In this document: positions 7,039-62,592 of the stretch, in pieces | Numbering within the stretch: position 1 is the stretch's first letter | Layout: each line of letters begins with the position of its first letter | Assembly: GCF_008630635.1 (NCBI RefSeq) | Contig: NZ_CP043869.1 | Coordinates: 2,914,501 to 2,978,500 of the forward strand | Direction: 5' to 3' | Source: Neptunomonas concharum | GTDB taxonomy: Bacteria; Pseudomonadota; Gammaproteobacteria; Pseudomonadales; Balneatricaceae | DNA: 64,000 nt | Made by a program: the position numbers and the translations under genes | The notes under the pieces: generated by a model | Seen by the model: only the letters and a program-made list of their open reading frames with translations | Told to the model about the DNA's origin: nothing | Database searches by the model: none

Positions 7039-10000
7039 GTAGCCCCCAAAGAGGATTAGCCGCCTGGTCGATTCGTCACCCTGTAGGCGTCAGTATGATA
7101 GCGCTTGCCGTCATTGTCTTGGGTATGTTTGCACTAAGTAAACTGGCGATAGATCTGCTTCCCCATATCATTTACCCAGAGATCCGTGTACGTATCACCG
7201 ACTCAGGCGTTCCTTCAACTGTCATGGAAGATAAAATAACTCGACAATTGGAGGAACAACTCGCCATTACTGAAGATGTCATCAGCATTCAATCGAATAC
7301 CAGTCGGGGCTTAAGCACCGTCGATCTCGCCTTTGAGTATGGCAAAGATATTGATATAGCACTGCGGGATGCCAGCACACGTTTGGATAGAGCCAAACGT
7401 TTTTTACCTGACTCAATTGACCCACCCGTCATCTACAAACTTGACCCTTCACAAATTCCCGTCATGGAGTTTGTCATTAGTTCACCACTGAGAGAAACCA
7501 TAGAGCTGAGGCGTTGGGTAGACCACCAACTGAGTAAGTGGTTTATTAATCTGCCCGGTGTTGCTGCAGCGGAAGTGGGAGGCGGCGTTGAAAGAGAGAT
7601 ACAAGTCATTCCCGATCAAAAACGACTAGCCGGCTTAGGCCTCACCTACAAAGACCTTACCAATGCCATCCAAAAAGCCAATAGCGACGAACCGATTGGG
7701 CGCATTCAGATGCCATCCAATGAAATCACCGGACGCATCCAAGGGCGTATTCACTCACTTGATCAATTACGCCAACTGCCTATTAGCCAACAGAATGGAC
7801 AAATTTTCTACCTCAGTGATGTAGCACGCGTTATTGATCATCAAGAAGATGAGCGGATTTTGATTCGAGCAAATGGTATTAGCGGTATCAAGTTATCTAT
7901 TCAAAAACAGCCAACCGCCAACACAACCGCTGTGGCCGAGATTGTACAACAGCGACTGGAATGGCTAACAGAGCAAGGAGTGATACCGCAGGATGTTGAG
8001 ATTATACCGGTAGCTGATCAGTCGGTTTATATTGTGCAATCCCTTAAAAATGCCACGCTTGCGGCAATCAGCGGCGCTTTGTTAGCAATGGCGGTCGTTT
8101 ATATATTTTTAGGCAATTTAAGACGCACGGTCATTATTGGCAGCGCGATCCCCATTGCCGTCATGTTTACCTGTATTTTAATGGGATTAGGCGGTCTAAC
8201 ACTCAATGTTATGACCCTAGGCGGCTTGGCATTAGGCATTGGAATGTTAGTCGATAACACCATTGTGATGTTAGAAAACATTTACCGCCACCAAGCCGAT
8301 AATGAACCCTCGAAAGAGGCCGCAACCACAGCGGCAACCGAAGTTAACGGTGCTATTGTGGCCTCGACCTCCACCAACCTGTCAGCCGTTTTGCCCTTTC
8401 TATTTATCGGCGGATTAACAGGGTTACTTTTCCGAGAGCTGATTTTCACCATTTCAGCCGCTATTTTTGCGTCAATGGTTATCGCGCTGACGCTAGTTCC
8501 CGCCTTTGCCGCTAAAGTAACAACTCTAAGCCGAAACCGTTTTAGAGTATGGTTCGACCATAAAATTGACACGTTACAAACATGCTACGCATGTTTAATC
8601 ACCAGACTACTCCCGCTTCGTTGGCTCATCGTTTTGCTTTTTTGCAGCGGACTAGCGCTTAGCCTTCCTGTTTTTCTATCCGGCAAGCAAATATTCTTAC
8701 CCAAACTAGATGACGGGCGTATTCGTATTACCCTATTAGCCGATAGTGGCGTATCGCTTGATGAGATGAATAGCCGCACCCAACAAATTGAATCCCTCTT
8801 TGCCGCCCAACCTGAAACCGACACGCTGTTTACCTTAGTTGGAGGCTCCGTATTTGGCCGCACCGCAAGAGAGATCCCTAGCCGCTCCACAATCATTGCT
8901 CAACTCAAACCTCTGTCACAACGCACCCTGACAAGTGAAGAGTGGATTGCCAATATGAAGCGACAGATTGCACAGATGCAATTGGCAGGTTTTACCGTGC
9001 GCATGTCACAAAGGGGTATACGCGGCATTCGAACCAACAGCGGTGACGACGACATCAGCCTACGACTGCAAGGAAATGATCTCTCAACAATGAAGTTATT
9101 AGCTGATGACCTGACTCAGAAAATGCGCGATATCCGCGGCCTTAAAAACATCTCTCACTCTGCAGAAGAGGAGCAGTTTGAACTTGCGATTACATTAGAT
9201 AGGCAACGTGCCGTCCAACTAGGCCTAGATATTCAGTCACTTACTCAGGCGGCTCGGATCGCTTTGCAAGGCAGCGTCATTAGTGATTTTCTGGATGGCG
9301 ACCGCAGCTACGATATTCGCTTACGCTTAGCTCAAGAGGAGATAGCCACACCTCAGGATTTAGACGCCATCCTGCTTTTTCCTGAGAACAAATCTCAGCA
9401 ACCGGTTTATTTAGGTCATGTAGCCGATATCACGCTGATAGAGACACCCGCCTCTATCAAACGCGACAACCAGATGAGGATTATCGAACTCACTGCTACG
9501 CTAAGTGAAGAAACCACGCTAGGAGAAGCTATAACTGAATTGCGTCAGCTTCGACAAAACTTCCCTTTACCCGAAGGTTACACGTTATATGACGGCGGTT
9601 CAGAGCAGGCATTACAAGCACAGCAACAGCTCACCCACGTACTCTTGTTACTGGCACTCTTTCTTGTATTTGTCGTCATGGCTATTCAATACGAGTCATT
9701 ACTGAACCCATTGATCATTATTATTAGTGTGCCTTTTGCAGCCTGCGGTGTCTCATTGGCAATCTACTTTTTAAAATTGCCCCTATCCATGCCTATATGG
9801 CTCGGCATGATTATGCTCATTGGTATCGTGGTAAACAATGCTATTTTATTAGTGGAGTATATAGAACTTGCGCGAATCAAAGGGAAGTCACTCGATCATG
9901 CGGTACGGGAAGCCGCTCGCCTTCGCCTGCGTCCCATTCTGATGACCACACTCAGTACTGTTGTAGGGATGCTGCCTCTGGCTTTAGGGTGGGGAGAAGG

Positions 10001-41185: not shown

Positions 41186-41260
41186 TGGTGGGTCGTATAG
41201 GATTTGAACCTATGACCAATTGGTTAAAAGCCAACTGCTCTACCACTGAGCTAACGACCC
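41186..41260 (-). tRNA. tRNA-Lys(TTT), copy A (CCA encoded)
   Basis: On the minus strand the cloverleaf runs GGGTCGTTAGCTCAGTGGTA… with acceptor GGGTCGT/ACGACCC, discriminator A and encoded CCA. The anticodon loop CTTTTAA gives TTT, and the T arm contains GGTTCAAATCC. 75 nt including CCA. Identical to the neighbouring copy. Confidence 0.97.
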
Positions 41261-41275
41261 GCAGGGAGGAAAAAG

Positions 41276-41350
41276 TGGTGGGTCGTATAGGATTTGAACC
41301 TATGACCAATTGGTTAAAAGCCAACTGCTCTACCACTGAGCTAACGACCC
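41276..41350 (-). tRNA. tRNA-Lys(TTT), copy B (CCA encoded)
   Basis: Second, identical 75-nt copy 15 nt from the first, with the same acceptor stem, anticodon TTT, T arm and CCA. Same strand, so one precursor transcript is likely. Confidence 0.97.
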
Positions 41351-41357
41351 ACTGAAG

Positions 41358-41433
41358 TGGCTCCTCGAGCTGGACTCGAACCAGCGACCAATAGATTAAC
41401 AGTCTACTGCTCTACCAACTGAGCTATCGAGGA
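41358..41433 (-). tRNA. tRNA-Asn(GTT) (CCA encoded)
   Basis: Acceptor TCCTCGA/TCGAGGA with discriminator G and encoded CCA, D arm TAGCTCAGTTGGTAGAGC, anticodon loop CTGTTAA giving GTT, and T arm GGTTCGAGTCC. 76 nt, 7 nt upstream of tRNA-Lys copy B on the minus strand. Confidence 0.97.
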
Positions 41434-41451
41434 ACTTCAGTATCCTTTAAA

Positions 41452-41539
41452 TGGCGGAGGGGCAGGGATTCGAACCCTGGGAGCCTCTCGACTCGCCGGT
41501 TTTCAAGACCGGTGCTTTCGACCACTCAGCCACCCCTCC
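41452..41539 (-). tRNA. tRNA-Ser(TGA) (CCA encoded)
   Basis: 88-nt class II tRNA: acceptor GGAGGGG/CCCCTCC, discriminator G, CCA, anticodon loop CTTGAAA giving TGA, a long variable arm typical of serine tRNA, and T arm GGGTTCGAATCCC. First gene of the minus-strand tRNA run. Confidence 0.97.
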
Positions 41540-61958: not shown

Positions 61959-62393
61959 ATGCTAAAGCCCGTACACCGCATCACTACAGCTAGCTTACTT
62001 TTTGCAGGTATTCTTCTAAGCACACCTGCCTTATCTGCAGCCGCATGCAAAGGGGAATCGCAAACAACCTGCAGTAATAGCACCAGCTGTTACTGGGTAG
62101 ATGCTTATAAGCGCTCTGACGGAGCCTCAGTTAAGGGACATTGCCGCGCTAAACCAAGCGCTTCTATTAAGAAATCAGAAACTAAAAAGGCAGCTGCAAA
62201 AAATGAGCGGCCTAATGAAAAGGCACAGTCAAAGGCCGAAGGTGCGAAAACAACAAAAGCGCCTGAAGTGAAAAAGACAAACAAACCTAAGACCGATAAG
62301 CAAAAAACAACTTCCGACAAAAAGTCGTCTAAAACTAATCAAGATGTTAAAAACAAAGAAACCAAGACAAACCAGAAAAATACTAAACAATAG
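61959..62393 (+). CDS. Secreted Cys-rich, Lys-rich small protein
   Basis: 144-aa protein with a signal peptide (to STPALSAA), a compact cysteine segment (ACKGE…TTCSNSTSCYWV…GHCRAKP, four cysteines, about residues 29-67) and a Lys/Thr/Ser/Asn-rich unstructured tail of about 75 residues. The tail is strongly basic. The cysteine block resembles short 'ACKGxxxxxCxxxxxCxWV' modules in secreted bacterial proteins. I cannot name a family. Start at ATG 61959. Confidence 0.8.
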   Translation: MLKPVHRITTASLLFAGILLSTPALSAAACKGESQTTCSNSTSCYWVDAYKRSDGASVKGHCRAKPSASIKKSETKKAAAKNERPNEKAQSKAEGAKTTKAPEVKKTNKPKTDKQKTTSDKKSSKTNQDVKNKETKTNQKNTKQ

Positions 62394-62430: not shown

Positions 62431-62456
62431 AAAAAAAGGGGGCTGAATCAGCCCCT
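62431..62456 (-). terminator. Rho-independent terminator of the predicted sRNA
   Basis: Read on the minus strand, GGGGCTG-ATT-CAGCCCC forms a 7-bp GC-rich stem directly followed by C and seven T (62437-62431). It lies 283 nt past the NlpC gene and before the convergent gene's stop, so it best fits the transcript starting near 62557. Confidence 0.88.
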
Positions 62457-62557
62457 AATGACAAGAACCGTGTAATCACCTGAAAGATAAGGGCTTTCTG
62501 ATGATTGAGTGAAGCATACCGCAATAGATTTTGACTAGTGCGGTATAACTTGCGAGC
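62431..62557 (-). ncRNA. Predicted Fur-regulated small RNA (about 127 nt)
   Basis: No protein gene begins here, yet the minus strand has a promoter (62564-62592), a predicted start near 62557 and a terminator ending at 62431. The predicted RNA has a 5' hairpin ATACCGCA/TGCGGTAT (62516-62546), a middle hairpin with GAAAG/CTTTC inside AATCA/TGATT, an unpaired stretch before the terminator, and a seven-U tail suited to Hfq. Size and layout resemble PrrF and RyhB, but I cannot see clear sequence identity to either. Confidence 0.65.
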
Positions 62558-62563
62558 CAAGAC

Positions 62564-62592
62564 ATAATATTAAAAACGAGAATCATTATCAA
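62564..62592 (-). promoter_or_regulatory. Sigma-70 promoter of the predicted sRNA
   Basis: Minus strand TTGATA (62592-62587), exactly 17 nt, TATTAT (62569-62564). This is close to consensus at both boxes and ideal in spacing. Confidence 0.75.
62572..62590. promoter_or_regulatory. Fur box overlapping the sRNA promoter
   Basis: AAAAACGAGAATCATTATC matches the 19-bp Fur consensus GATAATGATAATCATTATC at 15 of 19 positions, with the right half AATCATTATC perfect. It covers the -35 box end and the spacer of the minus-strand promoter, where Fur binding would block RNA polymerase. Confidence 0.75.

Follow-up and report, generated by a model that had tools for sequence, protein, structure and literature searches.

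Between two convergent genes of Neptunomonas, the minus strand very probably encodes a Fur-repressed, trans-acting, iron-sparing non-coding RNA (62557..62431), as judged by sequence comparison. The whole 64-kb stretch of DNA analysed is called the window here, and G000 is the genome it comes from. A promoter, a Fur box, a structure and a terminator, together with their conservation and the complementarity of a short core to iron-enzyme genes, are read directly from the DNA. Most likely this is an undescribed relative or analogue of the PrrF-like RNAs, found so far in Neptunomonas and in one sister genus. The first-pass annotation had proposed a lineage-specific, Fur-controlled RNA of RyhB/PrrF type, a proposal that is now supported by homologues, by the conservation of Fur box and promoter, by covariation and by predicted targets among iron enzymes. 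If true, an iron-sparing RNA whose pairing core is defined and whose targets can be tested would be in place for Neptunomonas and for the group to which the Osedax bone-worm symbiont Rs1 belongs.

The interval is bordered by the gene of a Lys-rich protein of 144 aa, for which Pfam gave no match at E 0.001 (61959-62393, plus strand), and by that of an NlpC/P60 protein (PF00877; 62739-63224, minus strand). Both genes end there, as had been described. A promoter-word scan of the minus strand found a -35 box TTGATA (62587..62592) and a -10 box TATTAT (62564..62569) separated by 17 bases, the pair at 62592..62564 matching 10 of 12 consensus positions; both boxes keep their position in other copies. 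The predicted Fur box TGATAATGATTCTCG (62577..62591, minus strand) overlaps the -35 box and the spacer. As the best 15-mer it matches 12 of 14 positions of the 7-1-7 consensus, and the best 19-mer match, on the minus strand from 62596 down, reaches 15/19. Fur sites of at least 12/14 occur twice in the 64-kb window versus a mean of 0.45 in the 2-mer-shuffled window, the sole further one lying at 9712-9726. Downstream, a terminator hairpin (62455..62439, minus strand) is followed by CTTTTTTT. The scans thus found again the promoter, the 15/19 Fur box and the 7-bp hairpin with seven T that had been noted on this strand. Promoter-like words in the region numbered 4 versus 3.8 (sd 2.1) in shuffles, which is the chance level when taken alone, and terminator-like sites 6 versus 2.1 (sd 1.5), somewhat above chance; the case therefore rests on comparison.

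The predicted small RNA is about 127 nt long (62431..62557, minus strand), its start being deduced from the -10 box and its end from the T-run. Its 5' head, GGCTCGCAAGT (also given as GCUCGCAAG; 62548..62558, minus strand), is conserved in most copies. Folding and covariation define helix P1 (62512..62551, minus strand, with arms at about 62551-62541 and 62521-62512). Helix P2 (62474..62506, minus strand, arms at about 62506-62496 and 62484-62474) varies in sequence, with compensatory changes that keep the pairing. Then comes an unpaired, PrrF-like core, ACACGGTTCTTGTCATT (62457..62473, minus strand), which alignment and target pairing mark as the predicted mRNA-pairing region. It is followed by the intrinsic terminator hairpin P3 (62439..62455, minus strand; 7 pairs, 6 of them G-C) and by the T-run TTTTTTT (62431..62437, minus strand). 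The window RNA folds 4.8 SD better than shuffles, and the four copies first recovered (folding z -4.8, -5.1, -5.4 and -3.7) all fold as P1, P2, unpaired core and terminator.

The query behind these four founder copies (L043, L044, L045 and L054) contained the Fur box. A BLAST search of 57 relatives with the interval as query matched it over its full or nearly full length in G004 and, at two places, in G003. The G004 copy and the G003 copy on C45 sit between the same two convergent genes as in G000, and the second G003 copy adjoins a gene read by eye as antiporter-like. When the four were aligned, the Fur box, the 5' head, a GCUUCA block, the core GGUUCUUGUCAU and the terminator were found to be conserved. 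A covariance model of the transcript only, with promoter and terminator left out (R1), returned 16 rows in the 57 genomes, of which 13 were judged real and three false (L052, L053 and L058), their printed flanks being without Fur box and terminator. A second model (R2), built on these 13 copies and run on 116 genomes of the family with search filters that lose weak matches, returned 27 rows in which 25 were judged real and two false on the same grounds (L115 and L123). The 25 copies lie in 14 genomes: nine in seven of the eight Neptunomonas genomes and 16 in seven genomes of one sister genus. While G000 carries one copy, G002, G003 and the seven matching sister-genus genomes carry two or three. 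Among 390 genomes drawn from the order, searched with strict filters at E 0.01, G000 and G004 alone matched. With laxer filters in 28 family genomes, G000 matched, and a match in G026 at E 0.13 was judged false (L251, one of two rows, whose printed flanks were again without Fur box and terminator). Three model searches, one of them with laxer filters, detected no copy in G005, of the genus Neptunomonas, although this genome keeps the sodB, sdhC and fumA sites described below (L153, L162 and L249); its RNA may be diverged or unassembled. Finally, a species-genome collection was searched with the exact pattern GCTTCA-N(24-54)-ACGGTTCTTGTCAT, which overlooks some true copies, among them the second in G003. 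Seven of the 50 stretches obtained combined a T-rich stretch with a Fur score of 11 or more and were judged real: four from Neptunomonas, one from the Osedax symbiont Rs1 and two from MAGs titled Nitrincolaceae. The remaining 43 were rejected for not having both, the score of 11 in L106 being a contig-edge artefact.

The first-pass annotation had set conservation of promoter, Fur box and terminator in relatives as a test beforehand, and each was found in most or all copies. A Fur score of at least 11/14 within 62 bases upstream occurs in 21 of the 25 copies, versus 58 of 5000 background sequences, and in 17 of the 21 copies other than the four founders; the other four of the 25 score 9-10. The best Fur site lies 32-33 bases ahead of the model start in 23 copies and 50 ahead of it in two. 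Each of the 25 has a -35/-10 pair, spaced by 16-17 bases, whose end falls exactly 5 bases ahead of the model start; at this fixed place 24 copies match at least 8 of 12 promoter positions (background 374/5000). Every copy has a T-run 13-27 bases past the core, and the terminator hairpin reaches -12 kcal/mol or better in 24. One copy, L118 (G135:C45), has a 6/12 promoter, a poor Fur box and a poor terminator hairpin with an intact TTCTTGTCAT core, and is perhaps decaying. Pairing is maintained as well. Across 25 distinct rows, 90.9% of cells are paired, and compensatory change affects 18 of 21 pairs, in 122 cells; none of 500 shuffles reached any of the five measures and slid controls were far lower, the alignment having been fitted to the structure, which favours these measures. 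Seventeen core positions hold an identical base in 23-25 of the 25 copies, in rows anchored on TTCTTGTCAT, which is present in all of them.

We then looked at what the core could recognise. Target prediction against 5' regions had been suggested as a check, and it gave a strong sdhC site, a high-ranking fumarase, a moderate sodB site and, in Neptunomonas, a weak acnA site. The pairing energy of the core was computed against regions -40 to +20 of gene starts, with mRNA structure ignored. As controls, we used 406 starts from crude gene calls on the window and 20 further stretches, together about 13% of the genome. The nearly invariant, unpaired core ACACGGUUCUUGUCAUU pairs with sdhC of G000 at -21.9 kcal/mol over its GUG start codon, a value reached by none of the 406 control starts. 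Second among the controls, at -17.8, came a class I fumarase (PF05681) that was not sought beforehand. Ranks 1 and 3 were a FixJ-like regulator (-18.8) and a methyltransferase-like protein (-17.5), both named by eye and with no evident iron link, and rank 4 a cytochrome b561 (PF01292; -16.8). The gene sodB is a PrrF target; here its pairing was moderate (-13.9 in G000, with 17 of the 406 controls as strong). Scored against gene starts in the same way, the 5' head (62548-62558) showed no pairing role, and neither it nor the linker favoured the sdhC and fumarase genes.

Pairing with sdhC is kept in all eight Neptunomonas genomes (-17.7 to -21.9) and in the six sister-genus genomes examined (-17.1 in each). 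Pairing with sodB ranges from -13.9 to -14.7 in the eight Neptunomonas genomes, the G003 start having been reset by hand. For fumA, it ranges from -10.6 to -20.4 in the same eight, being weak in G004 and G007, and reaches only -8.9 to -13.4 in five genomes of the sister genus. As a target in Neptunomonas, acnA is unsupported, with weak values of -7.5 to -11.2 in the seven genomes examined; six sister-genus genomes gave -10.5 to -16.7, some of the starts being doubtful. The leuC gene was also dropped, its pairing being mixed across 10 genomes. Shuffled cores, 2000 in number, half of which keep dinucleotides, paired on average as strongly as the real one in 2 cases for sdhC, 53 for sodB, 43 for fumA and none for the three summed, a sum favoured by choice, since it omits acnA and leuC and includes fumA, which joined the set once it had surfaced. 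A search for Fe/Mn superoxide dismutase (PF00081, E 1e-5) gave no match in the sister-genus genomes G018, G031, G132, G134, G135 and G136, and these six bear two or three copies of the RNA each.

A 14-mer core complement with up to two mismatches occurs at 25 places in its own genome (15+10), compared with 12+10 for a backward control. One of these places is the RNA gene itself. At the 24 that were examined (L141 excluded), no iron enzyme was recognised by eye and few lay at a start: L148 begins a 463-aa frame, and the distance downstream of a called start is 39 to 102 bases for L139, L145 and L147. A gene read by eye as radical-SAM holds, within its coding sequence, a perfect or near-perfect complement to much of the core in G003, G015 and G090 and, less exactly, in G000 (L058, L052, L115 and L136). 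It was set aside as a target because G015 and G090 are without a copy of the RNA.

From these features, we infer how the RNA would act. In the presence of iron, Fe-Fur bound to the box over the -35 and spacer would block the promoter. In its absence, the RNA would be transcribed up to its intrinsic terminator, and its two hairpins and the terminator would present the unpaired core ACACGGUUCUUGUCAUU. The core would then pair with the start regions of iron-enzyme mRNAs, those of sdhC in sdhCDAB and of the class I fumarase, with the Fe/Mn superoxide dismutase mRNA as a less sure target. Such pairing would lower translation of the targets, as for PrrF and RyhB, and thereby spare iron. Hfq and RNase E would probably take part, Hfq by analogy: PrrF2-antR pairing is inefficient without Hfq (PMC5501646).

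Where the RNA comes from is less settled than what it would do. The whole 64-kb window has four tRNAs at the Rfam thresholds and nothing else; these tRNA genes stand in a row on the minus strand (41189-41539), and two of them share score and length. Scans of the window and 13 homologous loci found no sRNA family at threshold, in agreement with the first view that the RNA was unannotated. The proposed covariance searches with the PrrF and RyhB models stayed below their thresholds. The PrrF model (RF00444) gave 17.6 bits on L044 and 18.3 on L045, far below a threshold of 90, and the L045 alignment joins the terminators and not the cores; at E up to 10 the window shows no listed match to it or to the RyhB model (RF00057), and RF00444 is above its gathering cut-off in none of the 116 family genomes. 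The RNA is not filed under RF00444 because its score is below the gathering score and this genome holds no sibling copy. The core nevertheless resembles that of PrrF: CACGGUUCUUG matches 10 of the 11 bases of PrrF CACGGUUUUUG, and 9 of 3000 shuffles do as well at any offset. Moreover, two other genera of the family have tandem PrrF-like RNAs below the RF00444 threshold, three in G020 (50.7 to 59.9 bits) and two in G012 (51.2 and 39.2). They carry the core variant CACGGUUCUU just before the terminator and end in AAUCACGGUUCUUUACCCCG or AAUCACGGUUCUUAGCCCCG (L252, L263 and L265; L253 and L264), with Fur scores of 13, 11, 14, 13 and 10 of 14 inside the five matches. Weaker PrrF-like candidates were seen in G011 (L254, UCACGGCUUAUGACC, Fur 11/14) and in G080 (L255, UCACGGCUUUUAUCC, Fur only 8/14).

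These comparisons lead us to think it rather probable that the family is by descent a strongly diverged PrrF type. An independent origin, in which a Fur-controlled iron-sparing RNA converged on a PrrF-like core, differs from this only in descent and is a possibility to be taken seriously, even if we lean against it. It fits the low RF00444 scores and the helices, which differ from those of PrrF. The PrrF consensus ends in CUAAUCACGGUUUUUGaCCCGG, with the core directly before the terminator, whereas in the Neptunomonas RNA it lies several bases further away. Since 9 of 3000 shuffles match the core equally well, the likeness could stem from chance or from selection towards the same targets. On the other hand, the tandem RNAs of the other family genera, with their Fur boxes (10 to 14 of 14) and the same CACGGUUCUU variant before the terminator, speak against it. 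Because of these RNAs and the 10/11 core, a wholly unrelated analogue is improbable. Going beyond descent from PrrF, we tentatively suggest, without quite favouring it, that a so far unrecognised superfamily of Fur-controlled RNAs, with CACGGUU(Y)UUG as its signature, extends across marine Pseudomonadales. With the same reserve, PrrF, the tandem PrrF-like RNAs and the Neptunomonas RNAs would keep the core while the scaffold is almost wholly replaced, so that a covariance model of one form would miss the others. Here, possibly, the targeting core of an sRNA would have persisted longer than its scaffold. In that case, marine Pseudomonadales in which no PrrF match reaches the Rfam threshold should not be taken to be without an iron-sparing RNA.

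Readings other than a free-standing regulatory RNA fare worse. The transcript could derive from the NlpC/P60 mRNA, as its 3' untranslated region or through processing, with a fortuitous Fur box: it follows that gene on the same strand, and no terminator-like site is listed between them. This is very unlikely, as the RNA has its own promoter and Fur box. Furthermore, gene context was examined for four of the 22 copies beyond those of G000, G004 and G003 C45, namely the copies of G001, G006 and G031 and the second of G003, and none is by an NlpC gene while Fur box and promoter are kept. A cis-acting leader or a small-protein gene is more improbable still: no gene starts on the minus strand before the terminator, and although the window copy has a 31-codon open frame with a TTG start, the longest frames of the 13 copies examined (out of 25) run from 0 to 31 codons, are not conserved, and coexist with sequence changes that keep the pairing. 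That promoter, Fur box and hairpin arose by chance and have no function is the least credible reading, agreeing with the chance level of the promoter word alone and contradicted by conservation and covariation.

We therefore return to the iron-sparing RNA and to its place among known ones. In the titles and abstract openings of literature on Neptunomonas small RNAs or Fur, or on PrrF in Oceanospirillales or Marinobacter, no such RNA is described. RyhB (RF00057) follows the same functional logic and scores 22.2 bits on L045, mainly through the terminator region, against a threshold of 55. The Burkholderia RNA ncS16, or Bc_KC_sr1 (RF02866), has UCUUGUC followed by a terminator, as here, and scores 30.1 bits on L044 and 12.7 on the window, both below the threshold of 48. 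Bc_KC_sr1 rises upon iron depletion and BrrF is an iron- or Fur-regulated RNA (PMC10987360), as are NrrF and ArrF (PMC2851614) and HrrF (PMC4144887); BrrF, NrrF, ArrF and HrrF were compared with the Neptunomonas RNA through Rfam scans only. The closest resemblance is to PrrF. PrrF1 (116 nt) and PrrF2 (114 nt) act on sdhCDAB and aconitases (PMC2851614), and PrrF has two sibling copies (PMC4211561). The Neptunomonas-type RNA has several copies in relatives but one in G000. Unlike PrrF, it has other helices and another 5' head, carries UCAUU between core and terminator, and finds no support for acnA as a target in Neptunomonas. In common with PrrF of Pseudomonas, it has a Fur box at the promoter, two hairpins and a predicted sdh target, and its unpaired CACGGUU-UUG core before the terminator resembles that of PrrF in 10 of 11 bases, at a different spacing from the terminator.
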